Below the pieces are notes generated by a model. That model saw nothing but the letters and a program-made list of their open reading frames with translations. It was not told the DNA's origin and did no database searches. A stretch of 64,000 nucleotides of DNA, from NCBI RefSeq assembly GCF_024972735.1, contig NZ_CP087723.1, positions 1,178,001-1,242,000 of the forward strand, written 5' to 3'. Of this stretch, positions 32,487 through 63,247 are shown piece by piece (position 1 is the stretch's first letter; each line of letters opens with the position of its first letter). The translations under genes and the position numbers were made by a program. This DNA is from Halalkaliarchaeum sp. AArc-CO. Lineage in GTDB: Archaea > Halobacteriota > Halobacteria > Halobacteriales > Haloferacaceae.

Positions 32487-33818
32487 ATGACAGTCTGGAA
32501 CGAGTGTCAAAGCATGGGTGAAGAAGCCACAAAGACGATTCAGACGCGCCTTCACATCGCGTCTGGTGAGCGGTCGTGGCTTCACGACGCCCGCCTTGCA
32601 TCACGCGAGATATTCAACGACACCATCAGCCTCACACAACAGGGCCACACGCGCACTGAGATACAGAACGAGGTTGACCGCGACGACTTCTTGCGGAACA
32701 ACAAGTGCGCGGTCGTCGGCAAAGCCCTCCAAACGTGGGACTCATACCAGTCACTCCTTAACTGGTGGGAAGAACAGGATGATCCTGATGGAGGCAAGCC
32801 AACGCCTCCGAGTACGGACAAATCTGGTGCGTATCCGGTCGTGATGGCACACACGGAAGGCTACCGCCTCACCGTAGATGAAGACACGAACCGCGTCCAG
32901 TTCCGCATCAGCCCGAAACCCTACAAGAAGGTGAAAGGACACCTACGCGGCGGCCCAGATGCGATGGACGAACTTCGAGACGCTATCACGTCGGATGAAG
33001 TGGATGTTGGGCAGGCCGAACTCCTGTACCGCGATGGCGTGTACTACCTACACGTCACGGTCACACGCGAGTTCGACGTGCCCGACCCCGACACCAGCGA
33101 CACGCTTGTTGGCGTGGACATCAACGAGCGCAATATCGCTCTCACCGCCCTCGACCGCGACACGATGCGGACGAAGGGCACGCTCGTCCTCGACTACGGA
33201 CGAGTCAAGCAGGAACGCCAACGCTACCACACCATCACGAAACGCTGTCAGGAACACGGTAAGACGAGCATCCACCGGAAACTCGGTGACAAGGAGGAGC
33301 GGTTCACCGAGTGGGTGTTGCATCGGCTTTCCCGTGCTGTCGTGGAGTTCGCAGAGCAATTCTCGACTCCGGTTATCGTGTTCGAGGATATGAGCGGCAT
33401 CCGCGACGAAATCAAGTACGGGACGTATATGAACCGCCGGTTGCACAAACTGCCGTTCCACAAGTTCGAGAAGTTTGTCTCGTACAAGGCGACGTGGCAA
33501 GAGATTCCCACGGACACAGTGGACGCTTATTACAATTCGCAGACGTGTTCGTGCTGTGGTGAGCGTGGCAGTCGGCAGGGACGGCGGTTCCGATGTGCGA
33601 ACGACGAGTGTGATGTGACACAAGACCACGCCGACCGGAATGCGTCTGTGAACATTGCATGGCGCGAGAAGGCGAAATTCGACGGTAACACGACGAATTA
33701 CCGGACTCACAAAACCCAGCCACAGGTTCGGTTGGTGCGTCTGTCCGGGTCGGGACGCGTAAGCCGCCCACCCTCATCCCGCTCGCTTGCCGAGCAGGGA
33801 GTGCTACTGCACGGCTGA
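32487..33818 (+). CDS. tnpB: IS605-type TnpB RNA-guided nuclease
   Basis: TnpB proteins are guide-RNA-dependent nucleases related to Cas12 that help the element persist. The 443-residue protein has the split RuvC site: Asp211 in LVGVDINERN, Glu300 in VIVFEDMSG and Asp383 in DHADRNASVNI. A zinc finger lies between them, CSCCGERGS (Cys354, Cys357) and CANDEC (Cys370, Cys375). All catalytic residues are retained. A second ATG (MGEEATK, 32514) could be the true start. The 3' part of the gene and the right end should encode the guide RNA. Confidence 0.93.
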   Translation: MTVWNECQSMGEEATKTIQTRLHIASGERSWLHDARLASREIFNDTISLTQQGHTRTEIQNEVDRDDFLRNNKCAVVGKALQTWDSYQSLLNWWEEQDDPDGGKPTPPSTDKSGAYPVVMAHTEGYRLTVDEDTNRVQFRISPKPYKKVKGHLRGGPDAMDELRDAITSDEVDVGQAELLYRDGVYYLHVTVTREFDVPDPDTSDTLVGVDINERNIALTALDRDTMRTKGTLVLDYGRVKQERQRYHTITKRCQEHGKTSIHRKLGDKEERFTEWVLHRLSRAVVEFAEQFSTPVIVFEDMSGIRDEIKYGTYMNRRLHKLPFHKFEKFVSYKATWQEIPTDTVDAYYNSQTCSCCGERGSRQGRRFRCANDECDVTQDHADRNASVNIAWREKAKFDGNTTNYRTHKTQPQVRLVRLSGSGRVSRPPSSRSLAEQGVLLHG

Positions 33819-33870
33819 GGGAACTACAAAAGCCTCGGGCCACCGCGCCCGAGGTTGTTTACGTGGTTGT
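33700..33870 (+). ncRNA. Putative omega (guide) RNA region at the tnpB 3' end
   Basis: In IS605-type elements the TnpB guide RNA comes from the end of tnpB and the right end of the element, with the guide read into flanking DNA. Here the end of tnpB and the following 50 bases contain several paired segments, including the hairpin at 33834-33855. The exact ends are unknown; the placement is by analogy. Confidence 0.35.
33834..33855. repeat. Right-end hairpin of the insertion sequence
   Basis: CCTCGGGC pairs perfectly with GCCCGAGG around a six-base loop, 15 bases after the tnpB stop. It mirrors the left-end hairpin in stem length and loop size. Confidence 0.7.
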
Positions 33871-33940
33871 TGCCTACTATCTGCCCCCGGAGCTCGCACT
33901 GACATCCATTATACAAGGAGTTCAACGTTCCCGGCCTGTG

Positions 33941-46623: not shown

Positions 46624-49600
46624 TCAATCGTCGCCGCTCCAATCGAACTCGGACGGCGGGGTGGCCGGTTCGGCGCCAGTCGTTCCGCGATCGGTCGTCA
46701 CCTCCGGAAACTCGGAGTGCGACGTGGTGGACGTGCTCGTCCGGGAGCCCTCGACGTCACCTCCGACGCGTGACAGTTCCGGGCCGATGACCAGCAGGTT
46801 GACGAGGATCGCCACGAGGACCATCCCCACGAGGCCGGCCGTCCACAGCGGGGACGGGAGGTCGAACAGGGGGGCCCCGTCGTCCCCATCGTCCCTCTCG
46901 CCTCCGTCGTCACCGTCGTCCACGTCCTCGACCGACTTCGCCTCCTCGTCGAGGGCGCTCTCTTCGTCGGGAGCGCTCTCCTCGTCGGGTGCTCCCTCGC
47001 CGTCGACTGATCCGGGATCGTCGTCGGAGCCCGTCTCGCCTGCAGCATCCGTGTTCACTGACGGCTCGACGGTGACTTCAAACTCGCTCGCTTCGTCTCC
47101 GTCCCCGAGTTCGACCTCGTAGGTGCCGGCCTCGCCGAACGCGATCGAGAACGGAACAGTCTCTATCGTACCGGGTGCGACCTCGATCGTCTTCGTTTCG
47201 ACGGTTTCCCCGTCGATCCGGAGCTCGGCTTCGTACTCGCCGTCGACCTCGTCTTCGTTTTCGACGGTCGCCTCGATGACGGCCTCCTCGCCCACGTGGA
47301 TGCGTTCCTCGTCGATCCCTGTCTCGAGCAGTTCGAGGCTGGCGGCGGGAGGGTCGGAGGCGTCACCCGCAGTCACCGCGAACTCGGAGAAGCCCGGCGT
47401 CACCGCAGTGTAGGTGTCGCCCCCCTCGTGAGTCGTCTCCAGTTCCTGCCACTCGCCGTCGTGGTACCGGAGCATCTCGACGTCGTCGGGTTCGGCACCG
47501 TCCGGGAGTTCGTGGGAGCGAACCGTAAACTCGAAGCGAGCTTCCTCGATGTCGTCGTTTTCGATCCCGTTCCGCTCGACGCGGAGGTAGCCGATCGCCT
47601 CACGTCCCTCGGGTTCGGGGGCCGCGTTCGGCTCGCGGGTGGGCGTGTACACGTCGAGATGGAAGTCCTCGGCGCCCTCGCCCAGCGAGAGTTCGAGTCC
47701 GGAGTGGCTGACTGACTCGCCCTCGCCGCTTTCCGCGAGATCGAACCTGACAGACTCCGAGGGGGACGGATCGCTCACCGAAACGGTTGAGCCATCGTCG
47801 GTGGACTCGACTGCGACCGACGGCCCGGGCTCCGGTTCCTCGCCACCGTCGCTCGGGGGGGTACCGAATCCCGGCGGTGGACCGCCTCCGCCCCCACCGC
47901 CACCACTGGCTCCGCCCCCACCGCCACCACTGCTTCCGCTGTCCCCGCCGCTGTCGGCTTCCGTGACGGTGACATTTCCGGCGTAGGCGTCGTTCACGTG
48001 CATCTCGTATTCTCCGGGGTCCTCGAACGCGTGCGTGAGGGTTGCGTTCGCATCTCCGCCGGCGGGGACGGCAACAGATTCAGTGGTGAGGGTTCTGTTG
48101 TCGACTCGGAGATCCAGGTCGACGGTGGCGTCGTACTCGCCGCGGTTCTCGACGGTGACGTTTACGCCGACTTCCTCGCCTTCCTCGATCTCGTTTGTCG
48201 TCAGGCTAGCCGGACCGATTTTCACGTCGGCCGCCGGGTCGATCACCGACAATGTGCCGGCGGGTTCGCCGTCGACGGCAAGGGTGTACTCGCCCGGTTC
48301 GGAAATTTCGTAAGCCAACTCGACCGTCTCGGCGGCCCGCCCCGCCACTTCGACGCGTTCGTCGACGACGCCGTCGCCGTCGAGTTCCAGCTCGACCGTC
48401 AGCTCGCCGGTCACGTCGCCGTCGTTCTCGACGGTCGCCTCGACAGTCACCTCGTTGCCGACCGGGAGTTCGGACTCGGTGGTTTCGGCGTCGACCACGG
48501 AGAGGTTCGCCGGCGCGAGGACGGTCAGGCTGTCAGCGACGGTTTCGGTCCGGTCGCCATCGTTGTCGTCGCCGGCGATCGCGATCGCGTATTCGCCGGC
48601 CTCGGGCGGTCCATAGGCGAATGAGATGGTGTCAGATTCGCCCGCAGGGAGAGTGACGTCCGTGGTTTGGTATTCGTCGTCGTCGACGTGGAGTTCGGCG
48701 GTGAAGGTGCCGTCGCGGTCGCCGACGTTCTCGACGGTCGCCGTGATCGTGGTCTGCTCGCCCGCGACGATCTCGGAGTCGTCCAGGGAGCCCGCGGAGA
48801 GTTCGAAGATCGGGGGCCGTTCGACCGTCAGGGTCGTTTCGGACGTGTCGTCGACCGTGATCCCGTAGGTGCCCGCCTGCTGGAACGACTGTTCGAAGCT
48901 AACGGTCGTGGACGCGCCGGGGTCGAGCGGTACGGTTTGGGTGGCCTCGGGGTCGCCGTCGACGTACAGCGTGGCGACGTAGTCGCCGGTCGCGTCGCCG
49001 ACGTTCTCGACGGTCGCCGTAATCGTGGTCGACTCTCCTTCGAGGATCGGATCCTCGCCCAGGGTGACGTCCCGCGTTTCGAACGCGGAGGTAGCCTCCT
49101 CGACGGTGAGAGTTCCGGCGTGGGCCCCCTCGACGGCTACGTCGTAGGTTCCGGGATCGGCGAACGGTTTCGTAAAGGTGACCGTCTCCGTTTCGCCGGC
49201 CCCGAGTGTAATCTCCTGGCTCCGTTCGGCCGCCCCGTCGATCGAAAGCGACACGTCGACGGTCCCCTGACGGTCGCCGACGTTCTCCACGTCGGCGGTC
49301 ACGTCGACTGACTCGCCCTCGAGGATCGCCTCCCGACTCAGGTCGGCGTCGGTCACAGCGAGCGTCGCGGGTTGTTCGACTGTGAGAGTACCCGCGTGGA
49401 CGCCGTTGACTGTGATCTCGTACGTGCCCGCGTCCGCGAACGATTCAGTGAAGGTCGCAGTCGTCGTCCCGCCGCCGGCGAGGGTTACACTCTTCGAGGT
49501 CACGTCCTCGCCGTCGACCTGGAGTTCGACCGTCAGTTCGCCTTCGCGGTCGCCCTGGTTTTCGATGACGGCGTCGACGTCGACAGACTCGCCCTCGAGG

Positions 49601-52600
49601 ATCGTCTCGTCCTGGAGGTCGGCGCCGGTGACCTCCAGGTCAGCGGGCGCTTCGACGGAGAGTGTTCCGGCGTCGACGTCGCTGAATGAGAGGTCGTACT
49701 CGCCGGCGTGGTCGAACGTCGCCTCGAGCATGACAGTTTCGGTTACCCCGGCTTCGAGGGTGACCTCCTGCTCGTCGACGACCCGGGTGTCAGCGCGGAA
49801 CTCTGCCTCGAAGGTCCCCTCGCGGTCGCCGACGTTCTCCACGTCGGCCGCGAGTTCGACAGAATCGCCCTCGAGGACCGTCGTTTCGTTCAGGTTCGGG
49901 TCGTGGACCTCGAAGGTCGCCGGCCGGTCGACGGTGAGCGTGACCGGGGTGGCGTCGTCGACGCCGATCTCGTAGTCGCCTGCCTCGTCGAACGGCTCGG
50001 CGAAGGTGACGGTCGTCGACTCGCCGCCGTCGAGCGAGAGCTGCTCGGTGGCCGATTGCTCGCCGTCGACGTAGAGGGTCGCCACGTGATCGCCGGACTC
50101 GTCGCCGACGTTTTCGATCGTCGCCTCGATCGTGACCGAATCGCCTTCGAGAACCGTCGTTTCGCTCGGGTTCAGGTTGCTCGTTTCGAACTCGGCAGGC
50201 TCGGGTTCGACGACGGTGAGGTCACCGGCGTATACGTCGCCGATCTCGATCGCGTACTCGCCGGCGGTCTCGAAGGTGTCCGAACGCTGTACCTGGGTGG
50301 ATTCGCCGCCCTCGAGGGTGACGTCGGTCTCGTTGCGAATCTCGGCCCCGGAGCCGTCGTCGGCGGTGAGTTCGACGGTGAAGGTACCCTCCGCTTCGCC
50401 GACGTTCTCGATCGTCGCCGTCGCGGCCGTCGTTTCGCCCTCGAAAATCTCGGTGTCTTCGACGGTGGGATCGCGGACCTCGAATTCGGCGGGCGCGAGG
50501 ACGGTCAGGCTGCCGGCTGTGGTCCCGATCCGGTCGCCATCGCCGTCCTCGCCCTCGATGACGAGGTCCTCCTCGCCGGCCTCGGTGGGTTCATAAGTGA
50601 ACGAGACGGGTTCGGTTTCGCCCGCGATCACGTCGACGTCGGTGGTGTCCTTTTGAACCCCATCGACGAGGAGTTCGGCAGTGAAGGTGCCGTCGCGGTC
50701 GCCGACGTTCTCGACGGTCGCCTCGACCGTGACTGATTCGCCCAGGACGATCTCGAGCTCCTCCAGGCTGCCGTCAGCGAGGTCGAAGACGGGCGGTCGG
50801 TCGACGGTGAGTTCCCCGGCGGGTTCGTCGCTCACGTCGGCGTCGTAGCTGCCGGCATCCGTGACAGTGCCAGAAAGGGCGACGGTTTGGGACTCGCCGG
50901 GAGCGAGGGTGACGGTCGTCGAGTCGAGTGTGATGGTCTGTCCGTCCCCGTCAGTAATCCGGAACTCGGCGTCGAAGTCGCCCTCGGCGTCGCCCGTGTT
51001 TTCGATGGTTGCCGTGGCTTCGGCGGCGTCGCCCTCGAGGATGGTGTCGGTGTCGAGAGTCGCGTGGGTGACCTGGAACTCGGGAGTGGCTTCCTCGACG
51101 GTCAGGATGCCAGCGGTGACGCCGTTGACCGTGATCTCGTAGTCTCCCGGTTCGGCAAACGTCTCGTGGAACGTGACAGTGCCTGTTTCGCCGCCGTGGA
51201 GGGAGATGGTCGTGCTGTTTCTGACCGCTCCGTCGGCCTCGAGTTCGACCGTCAGTTCGCCCTCGCGGTCGCCGTGGTTCTCGACGGTCGCTTCGATCTC
51301 GGCAGATTCGCCCTCGAGGATCGTCTCGTCCACCAGCGTTGAATCCGTGACTTCGAGAGCGGCGGGCGCTTCGACGGTCAGCGTTCCGGCGGGCTCGCCA
51401 CTCACGTCGGCCTCGTAGGTACCGGCGTCGTCGACAGTCCCCGAGAGCGTCACGGAGGTGGACTCGCCAGCGTCGAGCGTGACGGTTTCGGTGTCGAGGG
51501 TCTGTGTGTCCTCGTCGGTGATCCGGAACTCGACCTCGAAGTCGCCCTCGGTATCGCCGACGTTTTCGATCGTAGCGGTCGCTTCGACTGTTTCGCCTTC
51601 GAGGATCGTGTCGGGATCGATGTCGGCGTCGTCGACCTGAAACGAGGGCTGATCCTCAATCAGATAGTCGATCGCGGCTTTGGCGTCGATGATGCCGTGG
51701 CCGTAGCGGGAGTCGGCGATCCCATGTTCGGTTTCCAGATGCCATTTCGCGTCCTGTTCAGGGTCCCAGTCGTCGGGTTTCCAGGCGGTTTCCTGGAGGG
51801 CCTCTGTTATCTCGTCGGGGGAATGGTGTTCGTCTGTGGTCGATTGTACGAGCGCGGCTGCGCCGGCGACGTGGGGGGCGGCCATGGAGGTGCCTGCTTT
51901 GGTCTCGTAGTCGTTTCCGGGTACCGAGCTGGTGATCCACAATCCTGGAGCTGTGACCGAGGGAACCACGTACTCGTCCGGCCAGTCATCGGGTGCACTT
52001 GCACCCCATGCATCGTCGGTATCGATCAATTCGCCACCCGAACGATCCCACATCTCTTTATCGGACGTACTCGCCCCGACACCGACAGAATCGTACTCGT
52101 TACCGGGACTACTACTGGTCTCTTCTCCATCGTTGCCGATTGATGCGATCACGACTACTCCATTGTCTTCAGCAGTGCGGATCGGATCGATAAACGACGA
52201 GTAATAGCCGTCAACACCCATACTCATAGTGATGACGTCGGCGTCGTTTTCGACAGCCCATTCCATCCCACCGATTATCTGTGAAAAGCTCCCCCCGTCA
52301 TCCGGGAGCACGAGCCCGTGCATGAGGTCGGCCTCGGGAGCGACACCGATATGGGTTCCAGTTGCAGCCCCTCCGGCTGCGGTACCACTGACGTGCGTTC
52401 CATGTGATCCGGTGTCGTGCGGTGTCGAATCATCGATCTGATTTCCACTGCTGTCAAACTCGGCCCATCCTCCCGGATAGGTTGGGTCTCCCGGTTGCGT
52501 GGTGTGCAATTCCAGGTCATCGTGATCTGCGTCAATCCCGGTATCTAGAACTGCCACTTTGACACCTTCACCTTGTACACCGTACTTGTCCCACACCGCT

Positions 52601-53229
52601 GGTGCGTTAACTTGTTCGACTCCGTAAACAGTGTCGTAATCTTCCGATCCAACGGACCTGTGTGTTAGTACCTCTCCGCCAGAAATAGTGGACATTCGGG
52701 TAAGAGTCACGCTGTGTTCACCACGAGTGACCCGTTCTTGATCGACTGATTCGTGGCGAACGTCCGTTGGATCCGTCGAATCCGTTGCAGTCACTTCGAA
52801 ATTAGGATGTAATTGAGTCACCCCCTCGACCGCTGCAATGTTCTCGAGTGGGACTTGTTCAGTATCGACAGAAACGAGCACCGCATTCGTGATCCAAAAC
52901 TTCTTTTCTAACTCGATACCGGACTGAGACTCGACAAACGCTGTGAGTGGTTCTTGGGCGTGGTGTACCTGCTTCCTGTGTTCTTCGATCGAAACTCCGT
53001 TTCGCTCATTGCTGCCGACGCTTTCGAGTTGTACAATCAGTTCGATTGTGCCAGATTCGTTTTTGAGGTCCGAATCGATATCGACATCGGCGGATGAAGA
53101 AGGAGAGATCGCCGCTGTTGAATGGTCCGTTAAGGCGACACTACCAGCCGAGAAAGCGACGATAACTACCACGGCTAAAGAGATATGTATCAAATTTTTA
53201 TAATATGGTTCACTCTTACTACATGTCAT
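46624..53229 (-). CDS. Giant membrane-anchored subtilisin with 14 CARDB-like repeats
   Basis: This 2201-residue surface protein has a signal peptide (LIHISLAVVVIVAFSAGSVAL, residues 13-33), an I9-like propeptide and a subtilisin domain. The catalytic residues are Asp229 (VAVLDTGID), His276 (SHGTHVSG), oxyanion Asn366 and Ser448 (GTSMAAPHVAG). From about residue 530 there are 13 CARDB-like repeats of 85-95 residues, most with an ILEGE-like start and xVENVGDxxG. A Gly-rich and Pro-rich linker and a PGF-pre-PGF-like domain (LRVERNGIENDDIEEARFEF to VTPGFSEFAVTAGD) come next, then a 14th repeat, an acidic tract, one membrane helix (GLVGMVLVAILVNLLVIG) and a 45-residue tail. It may process or anchor surface proteins such as those encoded downstream. 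Confidence 0.9.
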   Translation of the reverse strand: MTCSKSEPYYKNLIHISLAVVVIVAFSAGSVALTDHSTAAISPSSSADVDIDSDLKNESGTIELIVQLESVGSNERNGVSIEEHRKQVHHAQEPLTAFVESQSGIELEKKFWITNAVLVSVDTEQVPLENIAAVEGVTQLHPNFEVTATDSTDPTDVRHESVDQERVTRGEHSVTLTRMSTISGGEVLTHRSVGSEDYDTVYGVEQVNAPAVWDKYGVQGEGVKVAVLDTGIDADHDDLELHTTQPGDPTYPGGWAEFDSSGNQIDDSTPHDTGSHGTHVSGTAAGGAATGTHIGVAPEADLMHGLVLPDDGGSFSQIIGGMEWAVENDADVITMSMGVDGYYSSFIDPIRTAEDNGVVVIASIGNDGEETSSSPGNEYDSVGVGASTSDKEMWDRSGGELIDTDDAWGASAPDDWPDEYVVPSVTAPGLWITSSVPGNDYETKAGTSMAAPHVAGAAALVQSTTDEHHSPDEITEALQETAWKPDDWDPEQDAKWHLETEHGIADSRYGHGIIDAKAAIDYLIEDQPSFQVDDADIDPDTILEGETVEATATIENVGDTEGDFEVEFRITDEDTQTLDTETVTLDAGESTSVTLSGTVDDAGTYEADVSGEPAGTLTVEAPAALEVTDSTLVDETILEGESAEIEATVENHGDREGELTVELEADGAVRNSTTISLHGGETGTVTFHETFAEPGDYEITVNGVTAGILTVEEATPEFQVTHATLDTDTILEGDAAEATATIENTGDAEGDFDAEFRITDGDGQTITLDSTTVTLAPGESQTVALSGTVTDAGSYDADVSDEPAGELTVDRPPVFDLADGSLEELEIVLGESVTVEATVENVGDRDGTFTAELLVDGVQKDTTDVDVIAGETEPVSFTYEPTEAGEEDLVIEGEDGDGDRIGTTAGSLTVLAPAEFEVRDPTVEDTEIFEGETTAATATIENVGEAEGTFTVELTADDGSGAEIRNETDVTLEGGESTQVQRSDTFETAGEYAIEIGDVYAGDLTVVEPEPAEFETSNLNPSETTVLEGDSVTIEATIENVGDESGDHVATLYVDGEQSATEQLSLDGGESTTVTFAEPFDEAGDYEIGVDDATPVTLTVDRPATFEVHDPNLNETTVLEGDSVELAADVENVGDREGTFEAEFRADTRVVDEQEVTLEAGVTETVMLEATFDHAGEYDLSFSDVDAGTLSVEAPADLEVTGADLQDETILEGESVDVDAVIENQGDREGELTVELQVDGEDVTSKSVTLAGGGTTTATFTESFADAGTYEITVNGVHAGTLTVEQPATLAVTDADLSREAILEGESVDVTADVENVGDRQGTVDVSLSIDGAAERSQEITLGAGETETVTFTKPFADPGTYDVAVEGAHAGTLTVEEATSAFETRDVTLGEDPILEGESTTITATVENVGDATGDYVATLYVDGDPEATQTVPLDPGASTTVSFEQSFQQAGTYGITVDDTSETTLTVERPPIFELSAGSLDDSEIVAGEQTTITATVENVGDRDGTFTAELHVDDDEYQTTDVTLPAGESDTISFAYGPPEAGEYAIAIAGDDNDGDRTETVADSLTVLAPANLSVVDAETTESELPVGNEVTVEATVENDGDVTGELTVELELDGDGVVDERVEVAGRAAETVELAYEISEPGEYTLAVDGEPAGTLSVIDPAADVKIGPASLTTNEIEEGEEVGVNVTVENRGEYDATVDLDLRVDNRTLTTESVAVPAGGDANATLTHAFEDPGEYEMHVNDAYAGNVTVTEADSGGDSGSSGGGGGGASGGGGGGGGPPPGFGTPPSDGGEEPEPGPSVAVESTDDGSTVSVSDPSPSESVRFDLAESGEGESVSHSGLELSLGEGAEDFHLDVYTPTREPNAAPEPEGREAIGYLRVERNGIENDDIEEARFEFTVRSHELPDGAEPDDVEMLRYHDGEWQELETTHEGGDTYTAVTPGFSEFAVTAGDASDPPAASLELLETGIDEERIHVGEEAVIEATVENEDEVDGEYEAELRIDGETVETKTIEVAPGTIETVPFSIAFGEAGTYEVELGDGDEASEFEVTVEPSVNTDAAGETGSDDDPGSVDGEGAPDEESAPDEESALDEEAKSVEDVDDGDDGGERDDGDDGAPLFDLPSPLWTAGLVGMVLVAILVNLLVIGPELSRVGGDVEGSRTSTSTTSHSEFPEVTTDRGTTGAEPATPPSEFDWSGDD
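46875..51663 (-). repeat. Coding repeats for the CARDB-like domains
   Basis: The segment encodes 13 tandem CARDB-like domains and one later copy. Recurrent DNA blocks such as GTCGCCGACGTTCTC and CCCTCGAGGAT recur roughly every 250-290 bases. They make recombination between repeats and length variation likely. The copies differ enough to exclude a single recent amplification. Confidence 0.7.
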
Positions 53230-53903: not shown

Positions 53904-55256
53904 CTATTCGTCGTTTTCGATTTCTAATCTGTTGTCCAACTGCACAGCGATGTTACATTCGACAACATCCCCCGTGACCTCGCCGAGATCACAGTCCTCG
54001 CCGAAGTCAGGACGACCATCGTCATCTTCATCGACGCCGCCGTACGCGTCCCAGATCGCTGTCCCTTCGGTGGGCCAGCTCCACTCTTCGTTCACGACCA
54101 GCAACCGAATATCGCCCCGTTCGACTGTAACGTCCTTGTCGTTGTTCTCGAGGATTGGGTTGAACGGCAGGTCGCTGCCGTGGCAGGCGAACGTGTCGCC
54201 GAGGGTTTCAAAGTCGCATCCGGGTTCGTCGAAGTTCACATCTATTTGGGCCCACTCGTCGGGGATCACGCAGGCGTCATCCCCCTCATCGAGCGTGTCG
54301 AGGACTTCGTCCGTATCATCCCAGACCTCGATAGCGACAGTTCCCGCAGAGAACGAACTGCTATCGTCCCTAAGGGATTCACCCTCGTTGTCGTAATATG
54401 TTACCGTGTACTCGCCACCGCAGTCGAACTCGAACTCGAACGTGTGGCTGTCACCGGCCAGGCGAGCCTGCGGGACGACATTCCATAGGAAGTTCGTGAC
54501 GTAGTCCTCACCGTCTTCGATCCGACGTGTGAAAGTGCCATCAATGTCGACGACCCAGTCGTTGTAGTCCCAGTCTGATTCGTCTTTCGGCAGGTCCTCG
54601 TAGGCGAGGCTGATCCGTCCGGTCTCGGTGATTTCTTCAGGGTCGAAGGTACAGTCGCCATCGACGTCGGCGACGATCCGGATCTCGTTGTCGAGTTCCT
54701 CGAGGAGTTCGTCTCCTTCGCTGAGACCTTTCGAGTTCGTTTTGAGTCCGAGACAGACGCATTCGCCCAGCGGAAGGCCGATCGCGTTGTCCTCACCGAC
54801 GATCGATCGGTCGCGATTGTCTCCGAGATAGAAGTCGACTCGTCGTTCGTCCTCATAGGGTTCAGGAGGGTCCGACAACTCATCGTCGTAGTCTTCGATC
54901 CAGATGCAGGCGTTTTCCTTGCCCTGGTTACAGAGCTGGAAGACGTTGTCTACATACATCCGAGAGTCCGAGTTGATACCCTCACCGAGAGGGGTACCCT
55001 CCCCGATCGTCGGATTGTCGGGGTTCATCAGGATCTCGAGATGCCCGTCACCGTCGAGATGGGCATAACTCGAATTGGGTGTCTCCGACCCGCCGATGCT
55101 ACACTTGTCCATCCCGAGGTAGGCGTCGGGATCCTCTGCGACCTCAATCTTCACACTACGTTGTGATTCGACCCGGGAGAACGCACCGCTACCGAGCAAT
55201 GCGCTCCCACCGACAGATGCCGATCCAACTCCAATCAGGAATTTGCGTCGTTGCAT
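53904..55256 (-). CDS. DUF1102-type secreted protein fused to an LruC-like domain (copy A)
   Basis: The 450-residue protein begins MQRRKFLIGVGSASVGGSAL, a signal sequence like that of haloarchaeal DUF1102/SipW-type proteins, then GAFSRVESQRSVKIEVAEDPDAYLGM, the conserved DUF1102 start. Shared landmarks are VFQLCNQGKE and GECVCLG. After about residue 210 it has an LruC (DUF4842)-like domain: SLAYEDLPKDESDWDYNDWVV, then VPQARLAGDSHTFEF. Copies B and C lack this domain; the solo protein at 60373-61608 has it without the DUF1102 part. It is probably secreted and surface-exposed. Confidence 0.8.
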   Translation of the reverse strand: MQRRKFLIGVGSASVGGSALLGSGAFSRVESQRSVKIEVAEDPDAYLGMDKCSIGGSETPNSSYAHLDGDGHLEILMNPDNPTIGEGTPLGEGINSDSRMYVDNVFQLCNQGKENACIWIEDYDDELSDPPEPYEDERRVDFYLGDNRDRSIVGEDNAIGLPLGECVCLGLKTNSKGLSEGDELLEELDNEIRIVADVDGDCTFDPEEITETGRISLAYEDLPKDESDWDYNDWVVDIDGTFTRRIEDGEDYVTNFLWNVVPQARLAGDSHTFEFEFDCGGEYTVTYYDNEGESLRDDSSSFSAGTVAIEVWDDTDEVLDTLDEGDDACVIPDEWAQIDVNFDEPGCDFETLGDTFACHGSDLPFNPILENNDKDVTVERGDIRLLVVNEEWSWPTEGTAIWDAYGGVDEDDDGRPDFGEDCDLGEVTGDVVECNIAVQLDNRLEIENDE

Positions 55257-55580
55257 GGTGGTTTCTCCATTGTTTCCGGCGGCACCTTTCCAATACAGCT
55301 GGTGCGCGCCTTACCGGACGTCACTACTTGGACGTCCTTTGGTATACACTGGAATCATAATTTCACAGAATATACATGAGATATCAATGAGTGTATTCTT
55401 CACATGAATTGACGTGATCTCGAGGTAATCTAACTTTGAACACATACGATCCGTGTTATCCAGAGTGGAAACGACTCGTCTCGCCGCATGAGTAACATAT
55501 CTCTCCACAGGTCATCGATGGCAGAAAATCAGTTTTCGAGAAAGTAAAGATCGATCCGGTAGATAGACAACAGAGGGATT
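55257..55580. other. Intergenic region between DUF1102 copies A and B
   Basis: The 324 bases hold the conserved promoter and leader of copy A at the left. The remainder (about 55390-55580) is AT-rich with no gene or clear repeat. Confidence 0.4.
55278..55388 (-). promoter_or_regulatory. Conserved promoter and leader hairpin, copy A
   Basis: Read on the minus strand: ATTGATATC (55388-55380), GAAATTA (55364-55358), AGTGTATACC (55350-55341), then GGCGCGCACC (55310-55301) which can pair with GGTGCCGCC (55286-55278) with one bulged base. The ATG is 21 bases further. Boxes recur at the same spacing at copies B and C. GTGTATAC is the likely TATA box, placing transcription start near 55318, so the hairpin is close to the 5' end of the mRNA. 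Confidence 0.7.
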
Positions 55581-56573
55581 TCAGTCGTTGATCTCCGGCA
55601 CGTCCTCCTCGTGTTCGACGCACACGCCCGTGTTACCGATGTCTCCCTGTTCGACAAGGTATTCGATGAGATCTTCTTCGAACTCTTCACACTCTTTATC
55701 TGAATCGATGCCAGTTCGACCGACCTCCACTCCGTTGGTCGAGAGGATAATCGGGTCACACTGTTCGGCAGTCAAGAAGTAGTAGCCGGGGATCCACGGT
55801 TCTTTTCCGTCACCTCTGGTAGCATTCGCACAGACGTTCAATGCACCTGAAATCTCGGCGCCGGTGCATTCCCAGGTCGTGTTGACTGGGAAGTTGTTCT
55901 CGTTGTAGACGCGCCAGAGGAAGTACTCTTCATCGTCGACCTCCATCGAACACATTCCGGTAACCGACATCGAGTCGGGGTCGACACGGTCCCCGAGCTG
56001 TCCGAGATTGTCTGCGTCGGCGTTGATGACGATCTCGTCGTCTTCGACGAGTTCATCACCATCCTCGAGTCCTTTCGTGACTGTGCGAATGCCGACACAG
56101 ATACATTCGCCCACGCCGAGGGGGAATGCGTTCTCAGCACCGACCAGGGAATCATCCTCGTCTCCGTTCAGATAGAATTCCACGGCGTCGTAGTCATCGT
56201 TGTAGTCGTCGTGTAATTCCGGAGTGTCGAACTCGTTGATCCAGACACCAACTTTCTGTTTGCCCTGGTTGCACACCTGGAACACGTCGTCGAAGTACGT
56301 AAAGGAGTCTGAGTTGACCCCTTCACCCCCTGCATCAGTGGGGTTGTCCGGCGACATGTCCACTTCGAGATGCCCGGATTCGTCGATATTTGTGTAACTG
56401 GAGTTCGGGGAGCCTGGACAGCCATCCAGTCCGAGATACGCGTCCGGATCCTCTGCGACTTCGATCGTTACGTTCCGCTGCGATTCCACTCTGCTGAATG
56501 CGCCCGAACCGACGAGCGCGCTGCCTCCGATTGCCGATGCACCTACTCCGTACAGGAATTTCCGCCGTTGCAT
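55581..56573 (-). CDS. DUF1102-type secreted protein (copy B)
   Basis: The 330-residue paralogue of copy A has the same start (MQRRKFLYGVGASAIGGSAL, then GAFSRVESQRNVTIEVAEDPDAYLGL). It keeps VFQVCNQGKQ and the Cys-x-Cys motif GECICVG. After about residue 200 it has its own C-terminal part without the LruC signature, ending acidic (EHEEDVPEIND) and carrying several cysteines, for example TTWECTG. A Tat-independent, SipW-like signal is likely. No signal peptidase gene of that type is in the window. Confidence 0.82.
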   Translation of the reverse strand: MQRRKFLYGVGASAIGGSALVGSGAFSRVESQRNVTIEVAEDPDAYLGLDGCPGSPNSSYTNIDESGHLEVDMSPDNPTDAGGEGVNSDSFTYFDDVFQVCNQGKQKVGVWINEFDTPELHDDYNDDYDAVEFYLNGDEDDSLVGAENAFPLGVGECICVGIRTVTKGLEDGDELVEDDEIVINADADNLGQLGDRVDPDSMSVTGMCSMEVDDEEYFLWRVYNENNFPVNTTWECTGAEISGALNVCANATRGDGKEPWIPGYYFLTAEQCDPIILSTNGVEVGRTGIDSDKECEEFEEDLIEYLVEQGDIGNTGVCVEHEEDVPEIND

Positions 56574-56872
56574 GGTTGTTCTCTCCGTTGGGTTTCCGGC
56601 GGCACCGGTCCGACGTTCGGGGGGGTGCGCGCCTTACTGAATCTGAACTATCCATACCCCCTTTGGTATACACCGTGAGTCTAATTTCTCGGTTGAAGTC
56701 CCGAAATCAATCTCTGTATGCGTCCATAGACGGTCCTGTTATGCTGAAACAATATTTTCCAGTAGGAAATAATTCGAGATTACTCGACTACAATGGTTCC
56801 ATACCTTCCAGACAATCTGCGCATGACGACCACGTCTCACCGTTAGAGAAGGAACTCGTGGAGAGGGGTGTG
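56574..56872. other. Intergenic region between DUF1102 copies B and C
   Basis: These 299 bases contain the copy B promoter and leader, then about 160 bases with no gene. A short plus-strand frame there does not look coding. Confidence 0.4.
56598..56711 (-). promoter_or_regulatory. Conserved promoter and leader hairpin, copy B
   Basis: On the minus strand: ATTGATTTC (56711-56703), GAAATTA (56688-56682), GGTGTATACC (56674-56665), then GGCGCGCACC (56633-56624) pairing with GGTGCCGCC (56606-56598). The loop (17 bases, CCCCCCCGAACGTCGGA type) is unrelated to that of copy A while both stem arms are identical. The ATG is 24 bases further on. Confidence 0.7.
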
Positions 56873-57877
56873 CTACTGTACGTTGAATGTAATCCAGGGA
56901 ATGTACCAATTTTGTTCGGCGCCACGCCGCAGAATGACCTCTACAGACGAGAAGGCTGAGACCGTGCGAGACTCACTTTCACCGGGTCCCAGGGTGACTC
57001 CCTGGTATCGCTCTCCAAAGTCTTCCCCCTCGAGTGGTCCTTCACTAATGGTGTCTCCCGTCCACTGGTCTTCAGTTCCGGATTCTCCATCAACTCGGTA
57101 GTCGAACGCAAAGTACCAATCAGTTGGATTATCAAATGTGAGTTCGATTTCGTTACCGTCGATTTCCCATTCCACGTATGGCCGGTCTTGTCCTTTGTTG
57201 TCTGCGTTAGGGCCTAGACCGTCCGATTCTTCATCGAGGACAAGTTCACCAACCTCGGGGACCACTCCTTCTACGTCGACATCTGCCGTGAGCACGAGCT
57301 CGTCGCCGAAGAGACGATTGTTCTCGGTAGCGTCGACGCTTTTCGTCATCGTCCGGAGACCGATCTCGATACACTCGCCGACTGGGATGCTCACTGCGTT
57401 GTCCTCGCCCATGATCGACTCGGTTCCGTCGTCGCCGACCCCGGCGGCCTCACCCGTGTAGAATTGTACTCTGGGTTCGTCTTCGTAGGATGTGTCCTCT
57501 ACACCGGTCGCGTCAATACCTTCGGGGTAATCCTCGTCAGTTGGAGGTTCGATGTAAAAACCAACTGTCTCCTTTCCCTGGTTGCAGACCTGAAAAAGGC
57601 TGTCGAACCAGGTGAACGAGTCGGAGTTGACTCCTTCACCATCGTTCGGGTTCTCGCCGACATCGATCCCGAGATGTCCTTTTTCGTCTATTTCCACGTA
57701 ATTATCACTGTTTGTCGACCCCGTCCGGGACAGCCCCAGATACGCGTCCGGGTCCTCCGCGACTTCGATCGCCACGTCACGCTGTGATTCGACCCGCGAA
57801 AACGCGCCCGATCCGACGAGCGCGCTGCCTCCGATTGCCGATACACCTATGCCGTACAAGAATTTTCGTCGTTCCAT
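56873..57877 (-). CDS. DUF1102-type secreted protein (copy C)
   Basis: The start at 57877 (MERRKFLYGIGVSAIGGSAL) gives 334 residues. It shares GAFSRVESQRDVAIEVAEDPDAYLGL and LFQVCNQGKE with copies A and B. The Cys-x-Cys of the others is changed to Cys-x-Glu (GECIEIG). The C-terminal part differs again and includes a stretch VEWEIDGNEIELTFDNPTDW and LGPGESESRTV, like beta-sandwich proteins of surface fibres or binding modules. Expected to be secreted. Confidence 0.8.
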   Translation of the reverse strand: MERRKFLYGIGVSAIGGSALVGSGAFSRVESQRDVAIEVAEDPDAYLGLSRTGSTNSDNYVEIDEKGHLGIDVGENPNDGEGVNSDSFTWFDSLFQVCNQGKETVGFYIEPPTDEDYPEGIDATGVEDTSYEDEPRVQFYTGEAAGVGDDGTESIMGEDNAVSIPVGECIEIGLRTMTKSVDATENNRLFGDELVLTADVDVEGVVPEVGELVLDEESDGLGPNADNKGQDRPYVEWEIDGNEIELTFDNPTDWYFAFDYRVDGESGTEDQWTGDTISEGPLEGEDFGERYQGVTLGPGESESRTVSAFSSVEVILRRGAEQNWYIPWITFNVQ

Positions 57878-58199
57878 AGTTGGTTCCGTATCGTTGTTGG
57901 CGCCACCGATCCGGCTGTCAGATCGGCGCACGCCTCAGTGGCCCCCACTCACCGGCCCTGTTTGTGTATACACACCGATCTCAATTTCAAGATAAAATAT
58001 ATGAAATCAATTAGATATTCCCTCTCTGAAAGGCACAATTGTTCCAAAATAGCAATTTCTCATCCCGAAACAATCAATGACTTCTCTCGGTACAATCCGT
58101 GGTTTCTGAAGTGAAAGCGCTCCATACTTCTCGTCATATCTCATCAGAGAGCCTGCCCAAACGACGAAACTAACTGTGTTTTTCACGTTACTGCTATCG
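57878..58199. other. Intergenic region between copy C and the zinc-ribbon membrane gene
   Basis: These 322 bases contain the copy C promoter and leader (57899-58011) and then AT-rich DNA with no gene. Confidence 0.4.
57899..58011 (-). promoter_or_regulatory. Conserved promoter and leader hairpin, copy C
   Basis: On the minus strand: ATTGATTTC (58011-58003), GAAATTG (57988-57982), GTGTGTATACAC near 57973-57962, then a hairpin in which GCGCCGATC (57929-57921) pairs with GATCGGTGGC (57911-57902) with one G-T pair. The stem sequence differs from copies A and B but position and pairing are kept. The ATG is 21 bases beyond 57899. Confidence 0.65.
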
Positions 58200-60372: not shown

Positions 60373-61608
60373 TTACTCTCTACAGGACTCGAACACTTCA
60401 CCGTCGACCGGGTTCTCGTACCAATTGTCGTCCTCGAAGATCGGTTGGTCGCCGTCTCCCGGCGGTCCATCCGCGACAGTTACCCCGTCGTAAGCGGTCG
60501 CAATGTGGACTCTCTCGTAGGGCCACATCCAGTCGGTGGGAACGGCCAACAGACGAACGTCCCCGATGCCGAACTCGACGTCGCGGTTCGGGTTTAGGTT
60601 CTCGAGGCGTGGATCGAAGAACAGTCCGTCGCCGTGTTCTCCGAATTCGGCGAGAGGTTCGTCGGGATCGAACTCCCACGGGTCGTCGAGTTCGAATTCG
60701 AGTGTCGCCGTGTACGCCGGCGGGACACAGGTACCGTCGTCGTCTCCTTCAAGGGCATTCGTGACGTTGTCCGGATAGACATCTCCGGTGTTGAAGACGT
60801 GGATCTCCGTTTCGTCGTCGAATGGCTCGTCTACTTCGTCACCCTCGCCGTTCCCGTCGTAGGTCAGGCTGTAGGTCCCCGTTCCCAATACATCGCCGGG
60901 AACGACCGACCACCTGTGTGTGTCACCTGCCCCCCGTGCCTTCGGGAGCAAATCCAGCTCGATCGAGGAGATGAGGGCATCTCCGTCGACTTCGATGCCT
61001 CTGAACGTCGCATCGACGTCTACGACCCAGTCGTTGTAATCGTAGTCGTTGCTCCCATCGAGGGGGAGGTCCTCGTAGGAAAGCGAAACGGTGTCGGGGA
61101 ATTCGACCTCGATTTCCGTAATTTCGGCCCCACAGAACGTGATGTTGCTGATCGCCGCCTCCTGCCCGCCGGGATTCTCGAGGTCGGAGGCGAACGAAGT
61201 GAGGCCGTCTGCGTCATACTCCTCGCTCGTATCTAGCCCACCGAACGCACAGACTCCCTGGATGACGTATCCGTCTGCCTCGAATTTGATGTAGTTCGGT
61301 TCGCAATCCTCTCCGTCTTTGTTGAATTCGTCGTTATCGGGTTCGTACGTAATGTCGACGACGACATCACCGTCTTCGCGTACGAACTCACACTCGTCGT
61401 CGTCGAATTCGTACTTCGCCAGGAACGTATCCTCCGGACACACACAGGACTGTCCCGGTGGTCCGTTACCCCCTGGGCCTCTCGCTGCTGCCGAGCCCGT
61501 CCCGAAGACGCCGAGCGCGCCTGCGGCACCGAGCCCCTTCAGTACGTTTCTTCGATCGATCGACGTTCCGTCGAATCCGCCGTTCTGGTTGGGGTCGTTT
61601 GCACTCAT
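60373..61608 (-). CDS. Secreted LruC-like (DUF4842) protein
   Basis: The start at 61608 (MSANDPNQNGGFDGTSIDRR) gives 411 residues. It has a Tat signal with SIDRRNVLKGLGAAGALGVF and a mature N-terminus with CVCPEDTFLAKYEFDDDEC. The LruC-like domain spans about residues 190-370 with LSYEDLPLDGSNDYDYNDWVV, LLPKARGAGDTHRWSVV and VRLLAVPTDWMWP. Matching segments in the copy A fusion are WDYNDWVVD, VPQARLAGDSH and IRLLVVNEEWSWP. It converges on the glycosyltransferase gene. A surface or extracellular-matrix role is likely. Confidence 0.8.
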   Translation of the reverse strand: MSANDPNQNGGFDGTSIDRRNVLKGLGAAGALGVFGTGSAAARGPGGNGPPGQSCVCPEDTFLAKYEFDDDECEFVREDGDVVVDITYEPDNDEFNKDGEDCEPNYIKFEADGYVIQGVCAFGGLDTSEEYDADGLTSFASDLENPGGQEAAISNITFCGAEITEIEVEFPDTVSLSYEDLPLDGSNDYDYNDWVVDVDATFRGIEVDGDALISSIELDLLPKARGAGDTHRWSVVPGDVLGTGTYSLTYDGNGEGDEVDEPFDDETEIHVFNTGDVYPDNVTNALEGDDDGTCVPPAYTATLEFELDDPWEFDPDEPLAEFGEHGDGLFFDPRLENLNPNRDVEFGIGDVRLLAVPTDWMWPYERVHIATAYDGVTVADGPPGDGDQPIFEDDNWYENPVDGEVFESCRE

Positions 61609-62140
61609 TATCGATATCTCACTCGGAAAGTGAGTACTATACACTCTGCCGCCTCAGGGCATTGTAATGACATAAATAACCGTTTTAGGGTCTCACAGCC
61701 CGATAAATCGGTAAATCGTTTCTTAACTGGCTTAGAACGCGGTAGTGAACTCCTTGTCGCGTCGCTCTACGTAATTTTCGAGCCGGGACCGGAGTTCGGT
61801 TTCCTTCTGTGTCTCAGCGACCCAGGAACTTGTTTTCCCATTTTAGAAGCGAGTTATTCACTCCAGTCAGTCATCAAAATATGAACGTTAAGGACTCCCT
61901 ATCGACAAGTTCGTCGAAATAACACTGCGACTCGGATCAAACAGCCACGCGTTAGTGACATTCACATAATGATATCTATCAGATATAACATCAGAGTGTT
62001 TTTGGAGTAACATGTTATTACGAAATCTTAGGCCCTAATTCACTATCGGTCCCGCTCTCGTACGATGTGATTACCTAACTGGGGACATGCCATCGTGTTA
62101 TCTGACTCGATGGGTGTGTCGGCCATCGGGGGGTTCAACA
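61609..62140. other. Divergent intergenic region with no clear gene
   Basis: These 532 bases are AT-rich. A five-base-pair hairpin CTCAC/GTGAG (61618-61634) and ACTATACAC beyond it lie ahead of the LruC-like gene, but they do not match the DUF1102 promoter set. A short plus-strand frame (about 61630-61884) looks non-coding. Promoters of both flanking genes must lie here. Confidence 0.4.
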
Positions 62141-62746
62141 ATGGGGATCAGCAATGACACCATCTCGTCGACCGTCGATTCGCTCGTACCGTCCAGTCGA
62201 AACCGAGATCCGGCGATTTCGCGGGAGGAGATCTTCGAAGTACTGAGCAACGAACGGCGCCGACTCGCATTACAGTATCTCGAACAGGCAGACGAGGAAC
62301 CGGTCCCCCTCCGGGAGGTGGTCGACTACGTCACCTCCCGTCAGAACGGCGCTTCACTGGAGGAAATCGACTCGGGGACCCGAAAGGCAGTGTACACCGC
62401 GCTCCGGCAGTCTCATTTTCCGAAGATGGACGACATGGGGGTCGTCGAGTACGATCAACTCCGGGGGGAAATCGAGCTTACGGACACCGCAAACGAGGTC
62501 CAGATGTACCTGGAGTACGTTCCGAAAAACGACATCCCCTGGCACGAGTACTATCTCGGGCTCGCGGGCGTCTGTGCCGCGCTCGTGACGGTAACCTGGG
62601 CCGGAATCTATCCGTTCGGCGGCCTTTCCTGGCAGTTGCTTTCGCTTTTGTTCGTCCTACTGTTCGTGATTTCGGCCGTGTCGCATGCGTATCACGCACG
62701 GGGGAACAGACTCGAAAACGCGACCGTCACCGAAGAGGCTCAGTGA
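62141..62746 (+). CDS. DUF7344-type winged-helix membrane protein (second copy)
   Basis: From MGISNDTISSTVDSLVPSSR (ATG 62141) the protein has 201 residues. The winged-helix domain reads EIFEVLSNERRRLALQYLEQ ... RKAVYTALRQSHFPKMDDMGVVEYD. Two C-terminal membrane helices follow (YYLGLAGVCAALVTVTWAGI and LLSLLFVLLFVISAVSHAY). The domain order is the same as at 7474-8061. It is six bases upstream of a secreted acidic protein gene. Its position beside the surface-protein genes makes it a candidate regulator of them (inference). Confidence 0.78.
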   Translation: MGISNDTISSTVDSLVPSSRNRDPAISREEIFEVLSNERRRLALQYLEQADEEPVPLREVVDYVTSRQNGASLEEIDSGTRKAVYTALRQSHFPKMDDMGVVEYDQLRGEIELTDTANEVQMYLEYVPKNDIPWHEYYLGLAGVCAALVTVTWAGIYPFGGLSWQLLSLLFVLLFVISAVSHAYHARGNRLENATVTEEAQ

Positions 62747-62752
62747 TCGAAC

Positions 62753-63247
62753 ATGCCCTCGATCCGTCAGGGGCTGATCGTTTTCGCGGCCGTCGCTGTG
62801 GGTCTGGCCATCGCGGTCGCCGCGACTGGGGGGTTCTCCACGGGCGACGTCGACCGGCTCGTGGAGATTCAGCTCGACGATCAGTCCTACGTGGACTCGG
62901 AGGCGCACCTCGATACCGAAAACTGTACGCTTGAGGCGACGGTCACGAACCGGTACAAGACGACGCTCGACGTCTCTGTCTCCGTGAACGATCAGTCCGA
63001 GACAAAACCCATCGGCGAGGGAGAGACAGTGAGTTTCGAATTCGAACTCGAGGACAATCCCGAGGAAGTCGGGTTACAAGCGCTCGGTGACGTGGTTCTC
63101 TTCGAGCACGCGATTAGTGACTTTCCGGACTGTGAGGACGGGACTGAAGACGGCTCGACTGCAGAAGACGGCTCGACTGCAGAAGACGGCTCGACTGGCG
63201 ACGAGGAAGACGGAGACAACGAAACCGACGAGGAGACTGACGAATAG
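62753..63247 (+). CDS. Small secreted acidic protein with EDGSTA repeats
   Basis: The 164-residue protein has an N-terminal hydrophobic helix (LIVFAAVAVGLAIAVAATGGF) that can act as signal or anchor. A beta-rich domain with Cys in ENCTLEATVTN and FPDCEDG follows, then a tail with three copies of EDGSTA/G encoded by 18-base tandem repeats. It ends GDNETDEETDE. It is co-transcribed with the DUF7344-type gene six bases upstream. Function unknown. Confidence 0.7.
   Translation: MPSIRQGLIVFAAVAVGLAIAVAATGGFSTGDVDRLVEIQLDDQSYVDSEAHLDTENCTLEATVTNRYKTTLDVSVSVNDQSETKPIGEGETVSFEFELEDNPEEVGLQALGDVVLFEHAISDFPDCEDGTEDGSTAEDGSTAEDGSTGDEEDGDNETDEETDE
63146..63199 (+). repeat. 18-base tandem repeat, three copies
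   Basis: GAAGACGGCTCGACTGCA repeats in tandem, the third copy ending GGCG instead of GCAG. It encodes the EDGSTA units of the acidic tail and can change length by slippage. Confidence 0.75.

Follow-up and report, generated by a model that had tools for sequence, protein, structure and literature searches.

A probable core-promoter box and hairpin leader of haloarchaeal pilin-type genes and its local variant before three adjacent paralogues

The three adjacent minus-strand paralogues considered here, which we call A, B and C, lie in a 64-kb stretch (the window; G000:C2:1178001-1242000) of the 3.18-Mb genome of the haloarchaeon Halalkaliarchaeum sp. AArc-CO, and each is preceded by the same fixed order of elements: ATTGAT(A/T)TC, GAAATT, GTGTATAC and a GC-rich hairpin. 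Our analysis reveals that a core-promoter box followed by a hairpin leader is an arrangement dedicated to a family of pilin-type surface-protein genes across Halobacteria, and that the two upstream boxes are local. We consider it rather probable that A, B and C form a promoter-modified local branch of this haloarchaea-wide arrangement, with the hairpin acting as RNA on the stability or translation of the messenger RNA (mRNA). The architecture of box and leader is well supported; from it we infer the transcription start, the use of Shine-Dalgarno (SD) sites, the action at the RNA level and the role in stability or translation. As judged from the sequences, the leader appears to constitute a new family of structured leaders in archaea, with a predicted role at the RNA level.

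All the elements that an earlier note on this DNA had described are present before the three genes (Table 1), and its remarks on their geometry hold: the hairpins end 21 (A), 24 (B) and 21 (C) nucleotides (nt) before the ATG, and the DNA between the boxes is not conserved among the copies, similarity being confined to boxes and stems. The spacings given there also agree with ours, but the 17 bases to the GAAATT box had been counted from GTATAC and the 38-39 bases to the ATTGAT box from GTGTATAC. Within the 62 nt that precede GTGTATAC, the three copies share two identical 6-mers at matching positions, and not one of 20,000 composition shuffles produced even a single such 6-mer. The stems of A and B are identical; that of copy C differs and still pairs, as the earlier note had seen, with U5-G standing for the G6-C pair, one A-U turned into G-U and extra pairs in what is the loop region of A and B. 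By themselves A-C give little covariation, which is supplied by their relatives.

It might be objected that the upstream DNA of A-C is alike by descent only, through a recent tandem duplication that carried along elements not under selection, since the genes are adjacent paralogues, their N-terminal halves are 53-57% identical and the two upstream boxes occur nowhere else. An alignment would then be expected to show similarity spread evenly over the gaps; what it shows is likeness restricted to boxes and stems with diverged DNA in between, and box and hairpin moreover turn up again, in different letters, in further haloarchaeal families. Leaving ATTGAT and GAAATT apart, simple duplication is already contradicted for the core box and the hairpin, and as a full account we regard it as very improbable.

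The distribution of these elements separates the core box from the boxes upstream of it. The pair GAAATT+GTATAC occurs in its own genome before A, B and C and at one chance place only, and the exact pair GAAATT+TGTATAC has 10 foreign matches in 170 genomes of the same family, none of them before a pilin-type gene; because no foreign match precedes such a gene, ATTGAT and GAAATT are taken as local boxes, which may form a local activator site for A-C. When GTGTATAC was sought together with a nearby gene start (pattern GTGTATACN{70,100}ATGVARCGNMG, the gene start lying 70-100 nt downstream), eight matches were obtained outside its own genome in 391 Halobacteria genomes, 289 of which have TafE-type genes, and none with the reversed control. 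Pilin-type genes follow six of these eight; they belong to two other families, and a potential leader hairpin stands before each, mostly with a GCGCG-type 5' arm. Among 202 gene starts extracted from collected loci, the place of GTGTATAC is taken in many leaders of other groups by AATACAAAG(T/G)GGGT, followed after about 20 nt by GAGTAAG and then by the hairpin; the 14-mer AATACAAAGTGGGT has 12 matches in 116 genomes, every one before such a gene at 69-99 nt (control 0), and a cross-group motif scan found a GCGCG(C/T)..GG(G)CGTG-type stem in eight leaders (class GCGCGYCC/GGGCGTGC). Box and leader are found almost only before pilin-type (TafE/DUF1102-like) genes.

These results divide the regulon that the earlier note had proposed: a structured 5' leader and a promoter dedicated to the surface-protein family stand, and ATTGAT/GAAATT as the activator site of that regulon is not supported. 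Similarly, the further copies that it anticipated exist as a divergent element of box and leader across Halobacteria, whereas the exact upstream boxes precede A-C alone. The TATA box which it placed downstream of the activator site is most likely GTGTATAC itself, because this sequence lies where other loci have AATACAAAG, some 30 nt ahead of the start of the leader.

A joint MAFFT alignment of the A, B and C leaders with those of their relatives was dropped, its stems being misaligned. For this reason, and because RNAalifold gave no structure on an alignment of the relatives only (A4, below), the structure was tested with folding z scores, with a covariance model trained independently, with an alignment fitted to a model, and by swapping arms. 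The mean folding z is -2.06 for 59 leaders whose sole criterion of choice was a box at 80-112 nt from the ATG on its upstream side; A-C are among them because the box list took in the TATAC types of the window. The corresponding value is -0.10 for 198 regions upstream of other open reading frames of the same loci (p 6e-18), and 143 relatives that lack a box stand at -0.43. Single-strand folding of the leaders of A (over 60 nt), B and C yields -18.3, -21.9 and -25.6 kcal/mol, with z of -1.96, -1.94 and -3.61, respectively. The covariance model (R1), trained on 17 leaders and on no window sequence, gave 30 matches at E 0.01 in 292 whole genomes, some of these matches being the training loci themselves, and each of the 30 immediately precedes a pilin-type gene of the TafE/DUF1102 kind. 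AATACA(A), a box outside the model, is found 27-28 nt upstream of the model start in 30/30 matches and begins exactly 27 nt before it in 28 of them. This would be the distance expected from a TATA-position element to the transcript start, and the spacing from box to hairpin suggests that the leader lies inside the transcript.

Pairing in the leader is conserved, with compensatory change. Nine of the 11 pairs change on both sides in the model-fitted alignment (A5), where 26 both-side-change cells compare with 12.6+-2.8 after shuffling (0/500) and with far lower values for slid partners; leaders with their own arms score 16.8, and with swapped arms 14.9+-0.37 (0/5000 permutations). Over the whole set the swaps discriminate, but a bulge in the stem keeps them from doing so within A-C taken by themselves. 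The same changes bear on the idea that the inverted repeat is a DNA-level signal, namely the operator of a dimeric regulator, with no role as RNA. A repeat just downstream of the promoter box would be suitably placed for this, and haloarchaeal regulators often bind palindromes; the arms, however, are split by loops that vary from about 5 nt (copy C) to more than 40 nt (relatives), no half-site is common across the genes, and the letters change while the pairing stays, all of which makes an operator an improbable explanation. Nor does a ligand-binding riboswitch, or a leader that carries a separate 5' small RNA, fare better, even though a conserved structured leader ahead of one gene family is what either would call for: there is free variation in the loops and inner stems, stem and loop differ widely in both letters and size, no conserved loop or junction and no common structured core past the stem base were found, and Rfam 15 has no match over the leaders, permissive thresholds included. 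We give this alternative hardly any credence.

Several observations weigh against a haloarchaea-wide leader that acts as RNA. The fold of copy A beats its shuffles only moderately; the R1 genome matches at E 0.01 all come from one family (f4); and the model finds copy B alone of A-C, weakly, its leader being the top match in the window (56641-56571, 19.1 bits, E 0.074; next match E 5.4). Significant covariation comes from the model-fitted alignment, and in a sequence-based alignment of the 17 training leaders (A4) RNAalifold found no common structure and the covariation was not significant. Besides, TafE genes that exceed their cut-off have different promoters, a fourth paralogue in the window (copy D, below) has neither the boxes nor a clear hairpin upstream, and several further paralogues are without a clear leader. 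Lastly, a strengthened leader stem blocked translation in Haloferax volcanii (PMC2636863), which suits a brake more than a booster.

If the hairpin leader is nonetheless an RNA element, as we favour, transcription would start at or near ...GTAAG..., about 25-30 nt downstream of the family-specific core-promoter box, which is GTGTATAC in A-C and AATACAAAG(T/G)GGGT in many relatives. The 5' end of the mRNA would consist of a short single-stranded tail followed by a strong hairpin that is rich in GC and variable in both sequence and size. Between the hairpin and the AUG there would lie a short segment, unpaired and containing an SD-like GGAG/GGTG. In truncated folds, the median distance from the box to the beginning of the main stem is 34 nt, and that from the end of this stem to the ATG 14 nt; 39/59 leaders have an SD-like 4-mer, which the stem covers in 5 of the 39. 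Working as RNA, the hairpin would set the lifetime of the pilin mRNA and its rate of translation, by 5'-end protection and/or as a translational brake, and would not bind a small ligand; such a role is the most likely one because of the anchoring at the 5' end, the compensatory changes, the lack of a conserved loop and a ribosome site that is usually free.

A switching variant of this mechanism is that the hairpin beside the ribosome site acts as a gate, holding translation back until growth phase, a protein or a small RNA opens it. The stem-loop of the H. volcanii hp transcript confers growth-phase control (PMC2636863) and is weaker than the leader stems here (-7.4 against -18 to -26 kcal/mol), which end roughly 13-24 nt before the ATG. 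Occlusion of the SD-like site is nevertheless as rare as the figures above indicate, and neither an alternative fold nor the conserved loop needed for a switch was seen, so that a gate is conceivable but on balance doubtful.

Genes A, B and C encode proteins that open with a near-identical N-terminal peptide, MQRRKFL.GVG...GGSALLGSGAFSRVESQR, and that are best described, on sequence comparison, as TafE/pilin-type surface proteins. NCBIfam TafE (Tat-fimbria adapter protein; Tat, twin-arginine translocation) is the top model for A, B and C, with 66.3, 74.3 and 71.0 bits, all well below the curated cut-off of 155 bits, which is a whole-protein score. The label DUF1102-type used in the earlier note suits copy B, which scores 28.9 bits with Pfam DUF1102 (PF06510) against a gathering cut-off of 22.2 bits; it does not suit A, which stays below at 17.7 bits, or C, which has no match. 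PDB 9p0a, deposited as a pilin, is homologous to A (E 8.2e-9) and B (E 5.3e-10), the two copies compared, and a gene with both leader and box at another locus (L200) encodes a protein identical to this solved pilin over 215/215 residues. The protein of copy A has 14 matches in its own genome at E 0.01, itself included, and at least four paralogues beyond the window (L015, L016, L017 and L019) likewise show, ahead of the ATG, a strong hairpin of the GCGCG.../...GGGCGTG type. One of them, L016 (G000:C1:109701-110189), contains an in-frame TGA at codon 11 with the leader hairpin intact and is probably a pseudogene. Copy D (L011), which runs from 63366 to past the window end, is a fourth pilin-type paralogue of 357 amino acids (aa), with an N-terminal half 53% identical to that of A.

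Upstream of the box, pilin-type genes are enriched in TTCARGC/GCYTGAA half-sites (0.41 per 220 nt versus 0.07); counted from the box, the half-sites gather at -12, -23, -33, -44, -54, -65, -75, -85 and -96, a phasing of about 10.5 bp in a set where some genes are close relatives. This suggests a shared activator bound on one face of the DNA. No such half-sites lie upstream of the box in A, B and C, where ATTGAT/GAAATT may replace them.

Between later cistrons, a compact tRNA-like element of the form CCCAC-(linker with YGG)-GGCGGTTCGATTCCGCC-G-GTGGG was observed, with CCCAC/GTGGG as acceptor, TTCGATT as T-arm loop and the YGG linker in 24/25. The pattern has 26 matches in 23/292 genomes (control 0), mostly just before a surface-protein (pilin-type or SipW-type) cistron and often with a pilin-type gene directly upstream, and nine distinct T-stems covary, with pairing of 95.6% that drops to 81.8% on shuffling; ARAGORN and Rfam detected no tRNA in the tRNA-like loci tested. 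Because tRNA-like elements in H. volcanii constructs are processed by RNase P and tRNase Z (PMC4946936), it is plausible that these are candidate processing sites for the same enzymes. A more speculative proposal, which we consider rather unlikely, is a two-part RNA programme of surface-fibre operons, in which the first cistron would have the promoter-anchored hairpin leader at its 5' end and tRNA-like elements (acceptor plus T-arm) cut by RNase P/tRNase Z would separate the later ones. Were it true, each pilin cistron would gain its own structured 5' end, and there would be dedicated post-transcriptional control in a group thought to be mainly leaderless.

As to the surroundings of the cluster, a Tat-signal protein is encoded at 60373-61644 (-), its middle region sharing 36% identity with the C-terminal portion of copy A (residues 91-420), with weak DUF4114/LruC-like matches and no pilin-type N terminus, a likeness that points to domain sharing within the cluster. 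Adjoining the pilin-type genes, 46624-53229 (-) encodes a protein of 2201 aa in which a subtilase domain precedes many CARDB repeats, and divergent from the surface-protein cluster lies the region 62087-63247 (+), a DUF7344 gene (putative winged-helix regulator) and then a gene for a small secreted or membrane protein, which is a candidate local regulator region. At 33697-33883 (+) there is a match to Rfam sot2652 (sense overlapping transcript; 156 bits).

Table 1. Coordinates of the genes A, B and C, their upstream elements and the tRNA-like elements (window positions unless a contig or locus is given)
Feature	Position	Strand	Basis or remark
Copy A gene	53904-55256	-	450 aa; N-terminal half TafE/pilin-type
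Copy A ATTGATATC box	55388-55380	-	sequence, 6-mer test
Copy A GAAATT box	55364-55359	-	sequence, 6-mer test
Copy A GTGTATAC box	55349-55342	-	putative core-promoter (TATA-position) element; AATACAAAG at the same place in relatives
Copy A hairpin	55310-55278	-	GGCGcGCACC (55310-55301) / GGTGCCGCC (55286-55278); 9 pairs, one bulge
Copy A ATG	55256	-	
Copy B gene	55581-56573	-	330 aa; DUF1102 over Pfam cut-off, TafE/pilin-type
Copy B ATTGATTTC box	56711-56703	-	sequence, 6-mer test
Copy B GAAATT box	56688-56683	-	sequence, 6-mer test
Copy B GTGTATAC box	56673-56666	-	sequence
Copy B hairpin	56633-56598	-	GGCGcGCACC (56633-56624) / GGTGCCGCC (56606-56598)
Copy B ATG	56573	-	
Copy C gene	56873-57877	-	334 aa; N-terminal half TafE-like
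Copy C ATTGATTTC box	58011-58003	-	sequence, 6-mer test
Copy C GAAATT box	57988-57983	-	sequence, 6-mer test
Copy C GTGTATAC box	57973-57966	-	contains palindrome GTGTATACAC
Copy C hairpin	57934-57899	-	GGCGTGCGCCGATC.. / ..GATCGGTGGCGCC; stem changed and extended
Copy C ATG	57877	-	
tRNA-like element, own genome	G000:C2:2540050-2540089 and 2540749-2540787		loci L004, L223, L240
tRNA-like element, other loci	L139, L144, L123, L146, L153, L216-L241		

Haloarchaeal mRNAs are usually leaderless, and a fibre-gene leader kept by compensatory changes behind a near-unique promoter box would be a clear exception to that rule. It would offer a testable handle on how the production of archaeal pili and fimbriae is controlled, and the leader model provides a search tool for pilin-type loci and describes an archaeal RNA family lacking in Rfam.

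Among known systems, 5'-terminal hairpins of the ompA type stabilise mRNA in bacteria, and the arrangement described here resembles them in having a strong hairpin at the 5' end of what would be the mRNA of an abundant surface protein, with the ribosome site free; protection would here be a matter of analogy, ompA belonging to another domain of life and having no homology to the haloarchaeal leader. Closer in lineage is the hp transcript of H. volcanii, whose 5' untranslated region contains a stem-loop that controls translation in vivo, abolishing it when stabilised and rendering it constitutive when destabilised (PMC2636863); the likeness lies in a haloarchaeal leader stem-loop whose stability sets translation there, and the difference in that hp is one gene with a weak stem (-7.4 kcal/mol), for which the accessible part of the report describes neither a family-wide element nor a dedicated promoter. 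With the Tat-fimbria families (TafE NF052522, TafA NF052520) and 9p0a, the proteins share a signal-like N terminus, M-x-RR...GxGAFS, and comparison with TafE gives A-C E values of 1e-18 to 1e-21, but these copies are longer (334-450 aa), score 66-74 against 155 bits, and true TafE genes have different promoters. The general haloarchaeal promoter, finally, has a TATA box 'TTWT' and a B recognition element (BRE) 'CGAAA' (PMC4983044); the box of the pilin-type family sits at the distance upstream of the predicted start that such a promoter would lead one to expect, and the family departs from it in using GTGTATAC or AATACAAAG(T/G)GGGT.

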